Below, piece after piece: positions 3,404-21,725 of a stretch of 21,732 nucleotides of DNA (positions are counted from its first letter, which is position 1; the number at the start of each line of letters is the position of its first letter). The stretch spans positions 1-21,732 of IMG/VR virus record IMGVR_UViG_3300015371_000212; one strand, written 5' to 3'. The translations under genes were made by a program, and so were the position numbers. Source of the DNA: a virus. The notes beneath the pieces are model-generated. The model searched no databases and was not told where the DNA came from. It saw nothing but the letters and a program-made list of their open reading frames with translations.

Positions 3404-5137
3404 TTAGGCTCCGTTCCTTCGCTGATGCTTCCGCTCAGCCCCACGGAACCACGAAAACAGCTTCTGCCCGTCAACGTAGAGGTTGATCGGCCCCGTGTCG
3501 CCGACCGGCTCCGGCCTGCCCAGCCCGTTGTAGGCGAGGTTCCAGCCGGGGCGGAGCCAGCCGCCCTGGTCGTACGTCGCCACATGCACATGATCCGAGT
3601 GGCCGCCCTCACGGTACGAGTTCAGCACCCCGCCGAAGATCGAGCCCAGCGGATCGTAGAACGCTTGTTTCACGCCACGATCTCCGATCAGTGAGAGGAA
3701 GAAGCGGGCCATCTGGCCGGGGCCGTCTGCGACGTCGATCGCTTTCGACGGATAAATCGAATGATCCGACCGGGTGCCGTGCTTCGTGACGGCGCCCTTC
3801 CGGTAGCCGGACGTGAGATGCAATCCCATCGCCTGGGCGCGGCTGAGCTCGTCGTACAGGGAAGGGTCGATGCTCTTCGGGCCGGTGCCGAACCCGCCGA
3901 ACATGCTCTTGTACTTGTTCGGATCCACGTCACCGATCGGGCTATGAGACGCCGCCGAACCGATCGCCCCCAACACGCCACCCAAAGCCTTGCCATGGTC
4001 AAGCACCCACTTAAACGCCTTCACGAGCTCGGTGAACGCGTGCACGAACGCTGCCACGGGTTTCAGCGCGTCCACGATTGCGTTCTTGATGTCGGCGATC
4101 ATCTTCGGCAGCGCCTTCACCTCCTCGAGCTTCACGAACCACTTGTAGAGGTAGTGGAAGCCGTCGGCGGCGATCTTCACGAAGTAGCCGATGTTCGCCC
4201 ATAGCGGCGTGATCGACTTCAGCTGCTCGTACTGGAACTTGTACTTCTCCTTCAGCTTGTCGAGGTTCCCTAGCTGGCTGTTCAGGGCGTCCGTCAACGC
4301 CACGATCTTGGGGAGAAGCTGCTTCCCGATCTCAACTTCGAGGTGATCCATTTGCGCCTTGTACTGCGCCATCCCGCCCGCGGCCGTGGCAGCGTACGCA
4401 TCAGACTGGCCGTGCAACTTCTTGTTCACCAGGTGAATGACCTTCTCCGCGGTCACCTGCTTGTCGTTCACCTGGGCTTGTGCTTTCGCGCCGTCGTACT
4501 GCGCCTTCGCATTATCCAAAGCCCGCTGTTTCTGCGCCTCCTCCGCCGGCGTGAGCTTCCCGAGCGCGTCATAGTGGGCGTTGATGGCGTCCTTGACGGC
4601 GTCGTAGGCGTGTTTCGCCTTCGCCTGTTCCGTCGTCACCGCCTGCACCTGCAACCCCAGGCTCTTGGCGGCGCGTTGGCTGCCCGCCATCGCCGACGTC
4701 AACAACCTTGTGGCGGTCTCCAGGTCAACGCCCTTGAAACGGGCCACATCCTGCGCTGTAGCGAGATCAACGGTCGCTTTCTTCATGTTGTGTGTCGCTA
4801 CCAGCAACGAGCCCAGCGCGGTCTTCGTGTCCGTGTCGGTGAAGCCGAGCTTCCGGCCGGACTCCTCGAGCTTGTCCACCTGTTCCTTGTACTTGCCCGC
4901 GTCCAGCCTGGCGGTTTTGAACGCCACATCCAGCCGCGTGTTCGCCGACTCGGCGTCCATCGCCGCTTTTACGCTCTTCTCCAGCCCGATCGCCAACCCT
5001 CCGGCGACGGCTACCCCGGCTAGTTTCGCGCCGCGGCCGACCTTCTGCATCCGGGTTTGCGACTTGTCCATCGCCCGGTCGAAATCCCGGGTGTTCGCCG
5101 TCAACAGCGCTTCCATGCGGGCGATCGTCGACGTCAC
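3404..5137 (-). CDS. Tape measure protein with C-terminal M15-like peptidase domain
   Basis: A 577-aa tail-length tape measure. Residues 1-60 (DFDRAMDKSQTRMQKVGRGAK, then a glycine/alanine-rich hydrophobic stretch) are a typical tape-measure start. Residues 60-400 are mainly helical, with a very Lys/Ala/Gln-rich coiled part (about 165-300) and hydrophobic segments (about 310-400). Residues about 425-520 look like a D-Ala-D-Ala-peptidase (M15) domain: LTSGYRKG, a Ser-x-His pair with His459, Asp468 in KAIDVA, and His516/His518 in SDHVHVA as candidate zinc ligands and catalytic residues. Such a domain could open peptidoglycan during DNA entry. GTG at 5137 overlaps the upstream stop as GTGA. It is short for a tape measure, implying a fairly short tail. 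Confidence 0.88.
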   Translation of the reverse strand: MTSTIARMEALLTANTRDFDRAMDKSQTRMQKVGRGAKLAGVAVAGGLAIGLEKSVKAAMDAESANTRLDVAFKTARLDAGKYKEQVDKLEESGRKLGFTDTDTKTALGSLLVATHNMKKATVDLATAQDVARFKGVDLETATRLLTSAMAGSQRAAKSLGLQVQAVTTEQAKAKHAYDAVKDAINAHYDALGKLTPAEEAQKQRALDNAKAQYDGAKAQAQVNDKQVTAEKVIHLVNKKLHGQSDAYAATAAGGMAQYKAQMDHLEVEIGKQLLPKIVALTDALNSQLGNLDKLKEKYKFQYEQLKSITPLWANIGYFVKIAADGFHYLYKWFVKLEEVKALPKMIADIKNAIVDALKPVAAFVHAFTELVKAFKWVLDHGKALGGVLGAIGSAASHSPIGDVDPNKYKSMFGGFGTGPKSIDPSLYDELSRAQAMGLHLTSGYRKGAVTKHGTRSDHSIYPSKAIDVADGPGQMARFFLSLIGDRGVKQAFYDPLGSIFGGVLNSYREGGHSDHVHVATYDQGGWLRPGWNLAYNGLGRPEPVGDTGPINLYVDGQKLFSWFRGAERKHQRRNGA

Positions 5138-8885: not shown

Positions 8886-8898
8886 GGTTGTACGGCTA
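8886..8898 (-). promoter_or_regulatory. Late motif copy 2 (TAGCCGTACAACC)
   Basis: Its first three bases are the stop codon of the 563-aa gene, and ATG 8881 of the connector gene follows 4 nt after its end. No Shine-Dalgarno sequence is present between, so the motif occupies the place of one. The following bases (ATCAATG) nearly repeat those after copy 5 (ATGCATG). Confidence 0.6.
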
Positions 8899-10587
8899 GG
8901 GCGGCGTATCCGACCCGGACACTGAACCGCCTGTGACGTCGCGTACCGTCACATCCGGCCCGGACGTATCCGACGCGGCAGCCCCCGCCCCGAGGGTGTC
9001 AGAGCCGCTCACAGACGGCCCCGTGGTGTCTGTGAGCCCAACAGCGGCCAGGATCGTGTTCACGATACTCACGGCGCCGCCGTACACGGTCACGCCGAAC
9101 GTCGCCACCATCGACCCCGTCACAGCCACCGTCGCGCTCATCCGGTGCGCCACCTGCTTGGCGATCGAGGCGGTAGCGATGACCGAGGCCGTGAGGGTCG
9201 TGGCGACGCCTCGCCGCATGGAGGCACTCACGACAACTGCCGTGGCGGTCATCGCTACCAACTTCACCTTGATCGTGGAAAGGGTCGCTGTCAAGACCAC
9301 GCTCGTCGCGGTCAGGCGCTTACCAACCTGCTTGAACATCGAGGCGGTCACCGCGACGCTCGAGGCGGTGAGAAGCTTCCCCACGCTCCGGGTCATGCTG
9401 GCCGTCACAACCACGGCTGTGGCCGTCATAGCGAGCAGCTTCACCTTGATCGTCGTCAGCGTGGCCGTCACCACGACCGCGGTTGCGGTCAGGATCTTCC
9501 CCACCTGTTTCAGCATCGACCCGGTCACCACCACGCTCGAGGCGGTCAGCAGTTTGTTCACCTGCTTGGCCATCGACGCTGTGACCACAACCGCGGTGGC
9601 TGTCATCGCGAGCAGCTTCACCTTCACCGTCGCCATCGAAGCCGTCACAGCCACCGTGGTGGCAGTCATCAGCTTCCCGACCGTCTTCAGCATGGATGCG
9701 GTAACAGCCACCGCCGTCCCGGTCAGGTTCTTGCCGACCTGGCGCTGCATCGACGCGGTCACGACAACGCTGGTGGCGGTCATGGTTTGCGGGATCGTGG
9801 CCGGCCCGCCCAGCGTCCAATCAGGCCGTGGGAAGCCGAGGAACGGAACCCCCATCTTCTGAAACATCCGCAAAGTGGGTAGCAGCGGCTCAACCTTCGT
9901 GTAGCCGAGCTCTGCCACGCCGGCGCTCGACGCCAAAGCCAACTGGAACCCGATCCACGACACGGTCGGAGCGAACCCCGTCGCGTTCCCAGCCTGCGTC
10001 GTCGACGCCGAGCTCGAAGACAAGAAGTCATCGATCGTGCCGACCGCATGCCCGGTCGTCGCCGAGATGCGGCCGTTGTCGATCCGCTCCGTGAACCCCA
10101 CCGAAGGCGAGTAGTTCGCTGTCGCGCCACCGGACGTGTCGGAGCCGGTCTGCCCGATCAGCGTCAGCCGCATATCCCCGGACAGGAGCCCCGACAGGGC
10201 CGGTGTGGTCTGGGTGTTGCCTGTGCCGGTGTTGTTCTGGACATCACGGATGATCGACCCGGCCCCGGTACCGACCGTGAGCGTGTTCGGAACCCCCGAG
10301 TACGCCGCAATCCAGCAGCTGACAACACCGCCCGCGGCGTGGGTCAGAGTCGGCGCGGACTCAGCCCCGTTATCGCGCTTCGCGAAAATCCGTACAGCGC
10401 ATGTGGAGCCGTTCGTCGCGGACGCAACCAGCGTGTAACCCGAAACAGTGGATGCGACGTTGTCGAACTGGTTCGCGACCAGCAGCAGAATGTCGTCCGT
10501 CGTGTGGCCCGCGGGGAGGCCGATCGACGCGACGTTGCCTGAGTCTGCTCCTGCTAACGCACCGACCGCACGGAACGCGATCGCCAC
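8896..10587 (-). CDS. Repeat-rich virion protein, candidate head fibre or decoration protein
   Basis: A 563-aa protein. Residues 1-220 form a beta-rich globular domain common in phage fibres and decoration proteins (SIGLPAGHTTDDILLLVANQ ... YTLVASA ... VRIFAKRDNG ... WIAAYSGV). Residues 269-498 consist of a 59-residue unit repeated three times plus a partial fourth, each built from three short T-A-x-x-V-x-V-T-A-S-M strands ending in Q-V-G-K or I-K-V-K-L-x-A. Residues 520-563 contain degenerate D-T-x-G-P-x-V-S-G-S-D-T repeats. Alternating Val/Thr suggests a long beta structure. The GTG at 10587 lacks a clear ribosome binding site. Position between capsid and connector genes favours a head-surface role over a tail fibre, but this is inference. 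Confidence 0.7.
   Translation of the reverse strand: MAIAFRAVGALAGADSGNVASIGLPAGHTTDDILLLVANQFDNVASTVSGYTLVASATNGSTCAVRIFAKRDNGAESAPTLTHAAGGVVSCWIAAYSGVPNTLTVGTGAGSIIRDVQNNTGTGNTQTTPALSGLLSGDMRLTLIGQTGSDTSGGATANYSPSVGFTERIDNGRISATTGHAVGTIDDFLSSSSASTTQAGNATGFAPTVSWIGFQLALASSAGVAELGYTKVEPLLPTLRMFQKMGVPFLGFPRPDWTLGGPATIPQTMTATSVVVTASMQRQVGKNLTGTAVAVTASMLKTVGKLMTATTVAVTASMATVKVKLLAMTATAVVVTASMAKQVNKLLTASSVVVTGSMLKQVGKILTATAVVVTATLTTIKVKLLAMTATAVVVTASMTRSVGKLLTASSVAVTASMFKQVGKRLTATSVVLTATLSTIKVKLVAMTATAVVVSASMRRGVATTLTASVIATASIAKQVAHRMSATVAVTGSMVATFGVTVYGGAVSIVNTILAAVGLTDTTGPSVSGSDTLGAGAAASDTSGPDVTVRDVTGGSVSGSDTPP
9094..9783 (-). repeat. 177-bp in-frame tandem repeats in the 563-aa virion protein gene
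   Basis: Three full 177-bp units (9783-9607, 9606-9430, 9429-9253) and a degenerate partial fourth (9252-9094) each encode 59 residues beginning M-T-A-T-(A/S)-V-V-V. Each unit contains three subunits of about 18-22 codons. The units are diverged rather than identical, so the array is not very recent, although copy-number change by recombination remains possible. Confidence 0.85.
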
Positions 10588-19582: not shown

Positions 19583-19744
19583 TCAGTGGGCTTGTGCGCG
19601 TAGCTCGTCACGCAGCATGGTCATGCGCTGCCGCACCCATCCCACTGTCATGCTGTGGTGTTGGGCTAGTTCTTTCTCTGAGTAGCCGTCTCGCATCGGC
19701 GTCGCTATATGCACCAGCGTCCACAATGCCGGCGTCGACAGCAA
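19583..19744 (-). CDS. C-terminal helix-turn-helix part of the split sigma-like protein (+1 frame)
   Basis: This frame encodes ALWTLVHIATPMRDGYSEKELAQ followed by SMTVGWVRQRMTMLRDELRAQ, a helix-turn-helix that resembles sigma region 4: S-E-K-E-L-A-Q as the first helix and V-G-W-V-R-Q-R as the recognition helix. It has no sensible start of its own near the domain; the frame is open upstream to 19978, but there it reads as Ser/Pro-rich low complexity. It is best understood as the continuation of the upstream frame after a one-base forward shift near the GGGG at 19745-19748. It ends in TGA before the short hairpin. Confidence 0.65.
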   Translation of the reverse strand: MLSTPALWTLVHIATPMRDGYSEKELAQHHSMTVGWVRQRMTMLRDELRAQAH

Positions 19745-20066
19745 CCCCGGGTTGATCGTCGAGGGGGACGAGCTTGACTGTGGGGCGTTCATACACCCCC
19801 CCTTTGAAGACCCACCGGGTGCGGGGGGTGTTGATGCGGCCCCTCCATTCAGCTGCCCGGGCTCTGAGCGTGGTGCCGGCGTACGTGCTGAACAGGATGT
19901 TGCGCTGCTCGAAGCGTTGGCTGAGGATCCAGCATTCTTCGATGAGGTAGGTGAGGAGCTCTTCGTGCTGATGCTCATTCAGCCCTGGTGTGGTGCGGTG
20001 CACGATTGTGGCGCAGAACGCTTCAACATCGGTGATGTTATGCAACCGGAGGCGACCCTCGAGCAC
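19608..20066 (-). CDS. Sigma-factor-like protein, N-terminal frame (frameshifted)
   Basis: Starting at GTG 20066, the first 107 codons read HNITDVEAFCATIV ... EELLTYLIEECWILSQRF ... LFSTYAGTTLRARAAEWRG ... YERPTVKLVPLDD, which I recognise as the region-2-like part of sigma-factor-like proteins found in many environmental phages. After LDDQPG this frame becomes unconvincing (AVDAGIVDAGAYSDADARR ...) and stops at 19608, whereas the expected C-terminal helix-turn-helix is intact in the +1 frame. Joined at the GGGG, the two parts give 160 aa, a plausible full length. TACGAT lies 6 nt before the GTG, so a leaderless transcript is possible. The gene may be broken, mis-assembled or recoded. Confidence 0.65.
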   Translation of the reverse strand: MLEGRLRLHNITDVEAFCATIVHRTTPGLNEHQHEELLTYLIEECWILSQRFEQRNILFSTYAGTTLRARAAEWRGRINTPRTRWVFKGGVYERPTVKLVPLDDQPGVAVDAGIVDAGAYSDADARRLLRERTSPTPQHDSGMGAAAHDHAA

Positions 20067-20097
20067 CCCCGAATCGTATTACCCGTGACGGATGGGC

Positions 20098-20268
20098 TCA
20101 CACCGCGTGTCGATGTTCAGCACGAATCTCCTCATACCCAGGTGGCGGACAGTCGCACTCACGGATACGCGCCTCGCCGTTCAACTGCATCGGCTGGTAG
20201 CGGCCACAGTTAGGGCAATACGACTCATCGGGTGGTCGTCGTGGCGGTGTCTTGTCGGGGCTAGCCAC
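20098..20268 (-). CDS. Small zinc-ribbon protein
   Basis: A 56-aa protein with one zinc site: Y-C-P-N-C-G-R in the middle and E-C-D-C-P-P-P after 16 residues (C-x2-C ... C-x-C). The N-terminal part (ASPDKTPPRRPPDE) is Pro/Arg-rich. GTG 20268 has GGATAGGG upstream and overlaps the methyltransferase stop by 8 bp. The first codons lie in an 18-bp direct repeat whose other copy stands directly after the lysozyme-like gene; there the repeat also begins with GTG in the same frame (V-R-P-D-K-T-P). The gene therefore seems to have lost and regained its start when the methyltransferase gene was inserted. Function unknown. Confidence 0.7.
   Translation of the reverse strand: MASPDKTPPRRPPDESYCPNCGRYQPMQLNGEARIRECDCPPPGYEEIRAEHRHAV
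20244..20261. repeat. 18-bp direct repeat, left copy
   Basis: The plus-strand sequence GCGGTGTCTTGTCGGGGC is identical to 21045-21062; with one mismatch it extends 3 bp further left. It lies in the first codons of the zinc-ribbon gene, touching the last base of the methyltransferase gene. Confidence 0.9.
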
Positions 20269-21016
20269 GCGCCCTATCCAGTTTTCGTTGAAGCCTGGCG
20301 TAACGCTCCTCAGCACCATGATCCGGGGACGGGAACGGCCTAACGTGCATGAGCAACTGCTTCCCGATGAACTCCGTATAGGCGGGCGGCACCGCTTCAC
20401 TGAGCTCTTCCAGCGTCATCCAGTCGATACCCATAGCCGCTTTCTGATCATCGAACGGGATGTCCCATGAGCCGATCTCCATCGTGCCCCTGACTAGGCC
20501 GCGGCTTGATCCTGTCCGCTGCTTAGACCTGCCTCCTGGGTAGCGGTCTTTCCCGTTCAGCAGGTGACGGCACGGCCACTCAGGGTCTTGTAGCGGCCAG
20601 TTCGTCTCGAACAGGCGGTGCCTCTGAATCTCCATCGGAGGATCGAACATCGTCCCGCACAACACGACCGGCTCCCACAGTGGGGCGCCATCGACATTCT
20701 CGATCACGTATGGCAAGCCAATCTCATACAGCAGCGCCCGTGTCTCTGCGATCAGATCGGGGTACTCGCCGACGTTGCCGGTGCGCTTGTACGCGGTGAA
20801 CGCCTGACAGGGCGGACTTGCATGGATTGCGTCGACCGTGTACGTCGCTGCGACGTCGAGGGCGTCACGGACAGACATGCGGAACGGGTAGTTCGGTTGC
20901 TTGACGATGTCCACACCCACCACCTCGAACCCAGCCCTGTGGTAGCCCATCGCAGCACCGCCGGCACCGCAGAACAGATCGAGTAGCCGGGGCTGGGAAG
21001 GGGAGGAACGTGTCAC
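20261..21016 (-). CDS. DNA (cytosine-5) methyltransferase
   Basis: A 251-aa enzyme that would transfer a methyl group from S-adenosylmethionine to cytosine C5 in DNA, most likely protecting phage DNA from restriction. Motif I LLDLFCGAGG (11-20) binds the cofactor, motif IV SPPCQ carries the catalytic Cys70, motif VI is ENV (106-108), motif VIII is QRHRLF (131-136), and motif X is PPAYTEFIGKQL (210-221). The target recognition region is short, so the recognition site cannot be read. GTG 21016 was chosen because the fold starts 10 residues later and because it overlaps (GTGA) a 17-codon leader frame; longer starts would run into the lysozyme-like gene. The gene is flanked by direct repeats. No partner restriction enzyme is present. 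Confidence 0.9.
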   Translation of the reverse strand: MTRSSPSQPRLLDLFCGAGGAAMGYHRAGFEVVGVDIVKQPNYPFRMSVRDALDVAATYTVDAIHASPPCQAFTAYKRTGNVGEYPDLIAETRALLYEIGLPYVIENVDGAPLWEPVVLCGTMFDPPMEIQRHRLFETNWPLQDPEWPCRHLLNGKDRYPGGRSKQRTGSSRGLVRGTMEIGSWDIPFDDQKAAMGIDWMTLEELSEAVPPAYTEFIGKQLLMHVRPFPSPDHGAEERYARLQRKLDRARG

Positions 21017-21066
21017 CTCGGAGTTTTCGACGCGAGCGCGTGTAGCGGTGTCTTGTCGGGGCGCAC
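21013..21066 (-). pseudogene. 17-codon leader frame, apparent remnant of the zinc-ribbon gene start
   Basis: GTG 21066 follows the lysozyme-like stop TAG with no gap and reads V-R-P-D-K-T-P-L-H-A-L-A-S-K-T-P-R, then TGA. The P-D-K-T-P part is shared, in the same frame, with the real zinc-ribbon gene start (V-A-S-P-D-K-T-P). The TGA overlaps the methyltransferase GTG (GTGA), so it may still pass ribosomes on to that gene. Confidence 0.55.
21045..21062. repeat. 18-bp direct repeat, right copy
   Basis: Identical to 20244-20261. It lies between the lysozyme-like gene stop and the methyltransferase start, 801 bp from the left copy; 801 is divisible by three, so deletion between the copies keeps the reading frame. 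Confidence 0.9.
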
Positions 21067-21402
21067 CTATGCACACTCCCACGGAGACCAGCCCGCATCC
21101 AACCAATACGCGTGGGCCGCTCGCGCCTGACCCAACGCCGACCACGAATGACCGTACCGAGCCCGCGCAAACGACCCCATCTGGAACAAGCCGAGATACT
21201 GACCGTTCCGAGCCGACGTGCTGTACGTGTTCCCCGTCTCACACGCCACCACATCAAACGCCTCCACCCGCTGCGCCGGCGTCTTCCAGTACGCACGCAC
21301 CGCCTTGAACACGTCCGGTGGCACCGGCGCTCGCGCCTCGCCGCGCGCAACCACCACCAAGAAACCGAGCGTAACTCCAACCAGAACCGTAACTAGCCTC
21401 AC
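21067..21402 (-). CDS. Small lysozyme/transglycosylase-like protein with N-terminal membrane segment
   Basis: A 111-aa protein. Residues about 3-19 (LVTVLVGVTLGFLVVVA) form a hydrophobic signal or anchor segment. Residues about 30-111 match the lysozyme-like/SLT fold used by phage and actinobacterial muralytic proteins: ACETGNTYSTSARNGQYLGLFQMG contains the candidate catalytic Glu55 and the G-L-F-Q-M-G signature, and HAYWLDAGWSPWECA closes the domain. GTG 21402 overlaps the upstream TGA (GTGA) with GGAGGT 6 nt before it, which decides this start over the longer open frame. It may be exported to the cell wall. A virion or infection role is possible; the main endolysin is at the other end of the window. 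Confidence 0.82.
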   Translation of the reverse strand: MRLVTVLVGVTLGFLVVVARGEARAPVPPDVFKAVRAYWKTPAQRVEAFDVVACETGNTYSTSARNGQYLGLFQMGSFARARYGHSWSALGQARAAHAYWLDAGWSPWECA

Positions 21403-21725
21403 AGAACCACCTCCAACTCTGATTGCGGCAGCCAATGCGCCACAGACGCGCCAGCCCGTTTCGCCTCGAGCGGCAACCCCTTCGCCGACGAGCCGTACGC
21501 CCACCCCACAATCCGGTACCCGGGAAACTGGCCCGTCACCAGCCAAAACCGCCGATCATCCGGATCGTCCGGGTAAACGAGCAAATGACCGTGCTCATGC
21601 CTGGTCTGGCGAACCTCGTCACCGTTCAGCAGATCACCGTCGTAGCAGGGACGGTCGGCGGGAGGCAACCCGACACGCAACAGACCGGCAACGGCAACCT
21701 CAGCGCCGGCAGCGTCGAGCTCCAC
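21399..21725 (-). CDS. Conserved phage hypothetical protein, 5' end uncertain
   Basis: A 108-aa frame from GTG 21725; the frame remains open to the window edge, so the true start may lie outside. The pattern V-R-Q-T-R-H-E-H-G-H-L-L-V-Y-P-D-D-P-D-D-R-R-F-W-L-V-T-G ... Y-R-I-V-G-W-A-Y-G followed by W-L-P-Q-S-E-L near the end resembles an uncharacterised protein I recall from many environmental phages. The histidine and acidic residues are notable, but no catalytic family can be named. Its stop overlaps the start of the lysozyme-like gene (GTGA). No function assigned. Confidence 0.7.
   Translation of the reverse strand: MELDAAGAEVAVAGLLRVGLPPADRPCYDGDLLNGDEVRQTRHEHGHLLVYPDDPDDRRFWLVTGQFPGYRIVGWAYGSSAKGLPLEAKRAGASVAHWLPQSELEVVL

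Follow-up and report, generated by a model that had tools for sequence, protein, structure and literature searches.

A short gene-boundary repeat in metagenomic phages as a candidate stop/start joint for cassette exchange

A C5-cytosine methyltransferase gene in a metagenomic phage is bounded by two copies of a short repeat that recurs, one to nine times each, in six other IMG/VR contigs (here L003, L066, L067, L068, L069 and L072). We propose that the repeat is a multi-copy gene-boundary linker of ~23 bp, and that it forms a stop/start joint at which homologous recombination exchanges gene cassettes, a reading that we hold at a probability of roughly 0.7. As we envisage it, the TAG within the GGCTAG of the linker would terminate any upstream gene, and in another frame the same bases (TTG/GTG GCT AGC CCC GAC AAG ACM CCG) would offer a start and the first eight codons (M-A-S-P-D-K-T-P) to the gene downstream. 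Because the linker supplies both a stop and a start, any linker-bounded cassette could be exchanged without damage to the frame, and with translational coupling to its neighbour kept; a cassette with two linkers would fit any copy, and might be gained, lost or replaced through linker-to-linker homologous recombination, within or between phages. The methyltransferase in the window (the whole 21,732-nt stretch of viral DNA analysed) would be the occupant of one such slot. We infer that the exchanges are made by general homologous recombination, through a phage or host recombinase, and suggest that translation begins at the linker.

The methyltransferase locus

On the minus strand of the window the gene order is: 108-aa gene, lysozyme-like gene, methyltransferase, zinc ribbon, 152-aa gene, HNH, terminase, portal. 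The cassette locus lies between the lysozyme-like gene and the HNH/terminase genome end, and its features are listed here by window position.

21399..21725, minus strand: 108-aa gene, function unknown (phrog_18407, E 6e-12); its stop overlaps the lysozyme-like start
21067..21402, minus strand: lysozyme-like gene, 111 aa, constant, flanks the variable cassette locus on the left; 79-96% identical in L003, L066, L067, L069 and L072
21045..21067, minus strand: linker copy 1, lysozyme-type variant (TAG, then GTG CGC CCC GAC AAG ACA CCG C), directly after the lysozyme-like stop
21013..21066, minus strand: 17-codon leader ORF, VRPDKTPLHALASKTPR followed by its stop, beginning in copy 1; the TGA overlaps the methyltransferase GTG (GTGA)
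20261..21016, minus strand: C5-cytosine DNA methyltransferase cassette, 251 aa (PF00145, phrog_363; motifs DLFCGAGG, PPCQ, ENV, QRHRLF)
20244..20266, minus strand: linker copy 2, standard form GTGGCTAGCCCCGACAAGACACCGC; methyltransferase TAG at 20263-20261, GTG of the next gene at 20268-20266
20098..20268, minus strand: zinc-ribbon small gene, 56 aa, CPNCG...CDC, with its N-terminus MASPDKTP from the repeat
20085..20100, minus strand: TGAGCCCATCCGTCAC, at which the variable locus ends on the right and L003 homology restarts (blastn, L003 4249-4446 to window 20110-19913)
19608..20066, minus strand: constant right-flank gene, 152 aa, with a 37% aa relative in L003 (tblastn)

An earlier, sequence-only reading of the window had picked out an 18-mer, GCGGTGTCTTGTCGGGGC, at 20244-20261 and 21045-21062, 801 bp apart and flanking the methyltransferase; both copies are indeed exact, and the 18-mer is absent elsewhere in the window, even with up to three mismatches. 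The pair exceeds chance, in that 0.08 matches (≤3 mismatches) would be expected in the window, no shuffle held two, and no other exact direct repeat within 1.2 kb in the window is as long as the 18-mer (Markov-simulated windows: mean 12.7, maximum 16). The enclosed gene was also correctly named, with PF00145 matched at 28.4 bits (cut-off 22), phrog_363 at E 9.6e-42, and the PCQ and ENV motifs present. Its start is most likely the GTG at 21016-21014, overlapping the stop of the leader ORF, and at copy 2 it overlaps the zinc-ribbon gene, which starts GTG GCT AGC, by 8 nt. Neither the lysozyme-like nor the zinc-ribbon product has a Pfam or PHROG match, so that 'lysozyme-like' stays the unconfirmed label of the earlier reading, and 'zinc ribbon' describes a cysteine pattern only.

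That reading took the pair for an 18-bp target-site duplication, left when the methyltransferase was inserted, in one event, into the start of the zinc-ribbon gene. Two perfect copies do flank the gene, and collapsing them after the lysozyme-like TAG gives, as it had proposed, V-R-P-D-K-T-P-P-R-R-P-P-D-E-S-Y-C-P-N-C-G in frame with the zinc-ribbon gene; a duplication of this kind is nevertheless extremely improbable, given that each relative has the repeat one to nine times at unrelated boundaries, and that it also stands at the same lysozyme junction in relatives that lack this methyltransferase. At that junction L067, L069 and L072 carry other genes, which speaks against an insertion inside the zinc-ribbon gene start. 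The 801-bp insert contains the methyltransferase and leader ORF only, with no transposition gene or other mobility enzyme. Since the lysozyme/repeat junction is present in relatives, since the repeat occupies up to nine places per array, and since the related L003 methyltransferase cassette has copies of its own, the repeats exist apart from this insertion. The spacing, to which significance had been attached as a multiple of three, is meaningless in that respect (successive spacings in L069 are 400, 1051, 217, 159, 243, 142, 217 and 196). What stands is that the methyltransferase is an added cassette between direct repeats, whose recombination would remove it in frame. The single-copy junctions looked for in relatives exist too, although it is other cassettes that follow them, and not the zinc-ribbon gene.

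Distribution of the linker

On its sense strand the linker reads approximately GTTGGCTAGCCCCGACAAGAC[A/C]CCGC. Our sample is seven contigs, several short and all metagenomic, and these hold 24 exact CCCCGACAAGAC cores: two in the window, four in L003, one in L066, two in L067, three in L068, nine in L069 (inside 2.7 kb) and three in L072. Besides the window, only these six among 2.9 million viral contigs scanned have the exact element, and a scan for the ATG-AGC/ATG-CGC form returned the same contigs. The linker was not found in 84,980 bacterial and archaeal genomes, searched for hosts and prophages, nor was any full copy found in isolate phages; mycobacteriophage relatives of the methyltransferase match it at ~76-79% DNA identity over short pieces, with no repeat. 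Alignment of the lysozyme-like gene across the 84,980 genomes confirmed no relative, and the L069 zinc-ribbon cassette, sought elsewhere by peptide pattern, turned up only in L069 itself. Terminase relatives, as a source of more neighbours, yielded one 5-kb contig beginning just before the terminase gene and one distant phage.

In L066 the contig terminus coincides exactly with the 3' end of its linker copy (5034-5050), which fits branching of the assembly graph, either where several following cassettes exist in the population or through some mis-joins. Short repeats can mislead assemblers, and some cassette orders could be mis-joined; the linker repeats themselves cannot be assembly products.

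Anatomy and reading frame

Across the 24 copies information content is high from about -6 to +16 around CCCCGACAAGAC[A/C]CCG and drops outside, with twelve consecutive bases invariant throughout. Every copy lies in gene orientation, and the frame is always P-D-K-T-P, usually M-A-S-P-D-K-T-P. A start codon stands 6, 9 or 12 nt before the CCC in 22 copies (ten TTG, seven ATG and five GTG), and the remaining two (L068 3039, minus strand, and L069:10149) are in-frame read-throughs inside zinc-ribbon genes, fusing two protein parts. In 13 copies the upstream gene terminates at the TAG of GGCTAG, such that its product ends in -VG, -GG or -RG, and TTG/GTG-GCT-AGC starts the next gene. Five copies have a linker ORF of just 12-17 codons, whose TGA overlaps the next start (ATGA/GTGA) in four of them, including the window's; the same leader pattern is seen at L069:8722, at the L068 copy 3197 (minus strand) and at L003:4127.

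With nearly all copies at gene starts and in one orientation, the linker might instead be a start-associated element needed by each gene of the region, with a mainly translational or regulatory function, exerted through binding of a phage protein or RNA or by adjusting initiation; recombination would then be a by-product of the shared sequence. Anti-Shine-Dalgarno pairing in the 18 nt before linker starts is above background (mean -9.0 kcal/mol, against -6.0 for other window genes and -4.4 at random sites), and the twelve invariant bases, falling within the coding part, suggest a nucleic-acid signal; start-associated sequences are described for cluster K mycobacteriophages in a passage of PMC3203893. 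We consider this rather unlikely as the whole explanation, because the two intragenic copies have no start nearby, because the RNA fold at the repeat is not conserved (z-scores scattered from about -0.8 to +2.2, mostly positive), because most phage genes, such as the window's structural genes, do without the linker, and because the one-sided homology described below gives direct evidence of exchange. By analogy with the role proposed for the cluster K sequences, a regulatory or translational role may coexist with one in exchange, and strict conservation of the linker DNA might reflect a regulatory binding site.

A further possibility is that selection acts on the peptide, MASPDKTP being a functional N-terminal tag, for targeting or partner binding, on many proteins. 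This would suit the PDKTP frame and residues, kept in 24/24 copies, as well as a look-alike with different Ser and Asp codons that ends three arrays; it is hard to square with CCC GAC AAG, which shows no synonymous change in 24 copies from genomes differing by 10% G+C, with the orphan leader of 12-17 aa, unjoined to any protein, in five copies, with the internal position of two, or with a degenerate-codon scan of viral contigs for diverged elements, which gained single-copy hits only. We regard such a tag as quite improbable; conservation of the linker, as judged from its codons, is at the level of DNA.

The look-alike, LVASPDKPP (CTGGTCGCTTCTCCCGATAAGCCACCC), lies in or ends the last gene at L003:4226, L072:2493 and L069:11119, occurs internally at L003:3328, and is possibly a diverged terminal linker copy, resembling ASPDKTP and lacking the stop. 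The intragenic linkers at L068:3039 and 2859 (minus strand) and L069:10149 fuse a common zinc-ribbon N-terminal domain to unrelated C-terminal parts, and this L068 gene has another, partial linker copy, CCCCGACAAGAAGGG, at its end.

Homology breaks at the linker

When 150 nt on each side were compared for every pair of copies (threshold score 25, top shuffled score 14.5), homology was one-sided in 17 of the 18 pairs above threshold, and 235/253 pairs had homology on neither side. Taken as a reading of sequence comparisons, one-sided homology at the copies is direct evidence of exchange. Were the copies the conserved 5' ends of diverged paralogous genes, produced by tandem gene duplication, an internal AEVVRLxxAL module common to some small cassettes would find a ready explanation; this account is improbable, however, in view of the many pairs without homology on either side, and of post-repeat cassettes drawn from families with no relation to each other (C5-methyltransferases of two different kinds, phrog_12600, zinc ribbons and coiled-coil-like proteins).

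The breakpoints can also be followed by blastn, in which the window matches L003, L067, L069 and L072 at 80-90% through the lysozyme-like gene, and the match stops where repeat copy 1 ends (L003 2927; L067 7910; L069/L101 13292; L072 1376). In the case of L072 the identity is 90% across the 108-aa and lysozyme-like genes, stopping at the repeat. What follows copy 1 is the leader and methyltransferase in the window, a 71-aa protein in L003, a related gene pair in L067 and L069, and a short leader in L072. L003 is the closest relative by methyltransferase (77% aa, with 96% for the lysozyme-like gene), and its homology to the window restarts at the methyltransferase and then again at TGAGCCCATCCGTCAC; the linker stands at the starts of four successive L003 genes, of which the methyltransferase is the third, its own N-terminus being the repeat read in frame, with further copies before and after. 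In L066 the sequence changes just after the lysozyme-like stop with no repeat copy there, and exchange at gene ends is therefore not always linker-dependent.

A whole cassette is common to two unrelated phages. Between the L068 record (66.7 kb, 52% G+C) and the L069 record (62% G+C), blastn finds a 186-bp patch of 91% identity that comprises exactly a linker, the zinc-ribbon domain and a linker, one cassette between two copies; past the second linker the two proteins continue into unrelated C-terminal parts, and beyond this patch the records share only brief matches, located at linkers and the EVVRL module. The 9% divergence means that this shared cassette is not a product of assembly.

The AEVVRLQ/R module itself (GCCGAGGTGGTGCGGCTACRG) lies inside many small cassette genes, as if it were a sub-gene joint, at L069:10598, 10839 and 11023, L003:3232, L067:8476, L072:1672 and L068 ~2903 (minus strand).

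Recombinases

The L068 record carries a phage RecA gene (G001:C1:53070-53807; PF00154, 168 bits). No RecT was found in any of the records, and neither a tyrosine integrase (PF00589) nor a serine recombinase in the seven, all of which may be fragments. A length of 23 bp is short for RecA-type recombination; the identical stretch at some joints is up to 37 bp.

Comparison with known systems

It has long been asked of phage mosaics whether their joints arise by homologous recombination at boundary sequences, or by illegitimate recombination and then selection. To our knowledge, each known phage boundary sequence is specific to one junction; the linker, unlike these, recurs at as many as nine places in succession, brings its own stop and start codons, and is coding in part. 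A passage of PMC3029335 (citing its refs 21, 22) relates that short conserved boundary sequences have long been proposed to mediate modular phage exchange, and that they are not findable at most mosaic borders. The linker resembles them, so far as that passage describes them, in its shortness and its shared presence at the borders of genes or modules, in one-sided homology, and in being consistent with general recombination; homology breaks at the shared border sequence in 17/18 pairs and, by blastn, in four relatives. Here one short sequence marks nearly every border, and a single cassette bounded by two copies is common to unrelated phages. The sequence of the linker would itself explain how joints survive functionally; it is small enough to be tested in laboratory phages, and could be a natural standard joint for gene cassettes.

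The start-associated sequence (SAS) of cluster K mycobacteriophages, as set out in the passage of PMC3203893, is a 13-bp element, GGGATAGGAGCCC, containing AGGAG and placed 3-7 bp upstream of mostly ATG starts, usually after an intergenic gap of >50 bp. In that description SAS/ESAS and the linker are alike as asymmetric, multi-copy repeats of one orientation, found at the starts of unrelated small non-structural genes (all 24 linker copies share one orientation, and 22 are at starts of unrelated genes), with the upstream stop sometimes inside the repeat, and absent from hosts. They differ in sequence, and the linker, which lacks AGGAG, takes in the start, runs on for ~20 nt inside the gene and links genes that overlap; traces of cassette exchange are present at the linker, whereas the PMC3203893 passage reports none for SAS. 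That the linker is a cluster K SAS is ruled out by its sequence and by its position overlapping the start.

Arbiol et al. 2010 and Comeau et al. 2014, both cited in PMC4503421, are said to have described PeSL promoter/terminator cassettes that mediate modular shuffling in T4-type phages. PeSL and linker are alike as repeated elements at gene borders in plastic regions, and in modular shuffling, but PeSL is transcriptional (an early promoter and stem-loop) and the linker a translational stop/start joint with no stem-loop signal.

In integrons, small cassette genes stand in a row with a common short site (attC) at the boundary of each, and an integrase is present. The linker locus is likewise an array of small genes with a shared short site at each boundary; its site differs in being asymmetric and translated, with no conserved fold, and no integrase was found in these records. 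An integron cassette array as such was rejected, there being no PF00589 match in the seven records (possibly fragments) and no foldable site. More tentatively, the loci might amount to an integrase-free, integron-like phage platform, with a 23-bp translated linker as both stop/start coupler and universal recombination site, moving anti-restriction and accessory cassettes between unrelated phages.

We class the linker apart from boundary sequences and SAS because it is coding, overlaps both the stop and the start codon, and recurs at one boundary after the next. It joins features of boundary sequences with those of start-associated repeats, within the limited literature compared, and it may have been described elsewhere.

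Cassette content and host

Apart from the families named above, other cassette proteins show weak DNA-methyltransferase similarity, and these contents suggest an accessory or anti-restriction locus; the cassettes may serve anti-restriction or similar accessory roles. The best terminase relatives belong to Rhodococcus, Arthrobacter and Mycobacterium phages (37-38%), and the host is therefore likely to be actinobacterial.

Upstream of the lysozyme-like gene in L003 (1-2344) there appear, by eye, to be a helicase-like gene and a further DNA methyltransferase-like gene. Away from the cassette locus, positions 9095-9783 of the window (in the minus-strand ORF 8896-10587) hold units of a 177-nt repeat, sub-spaced at 57/120 nt, which probably encode a repetitive part of a tail tape-measure-type protein.
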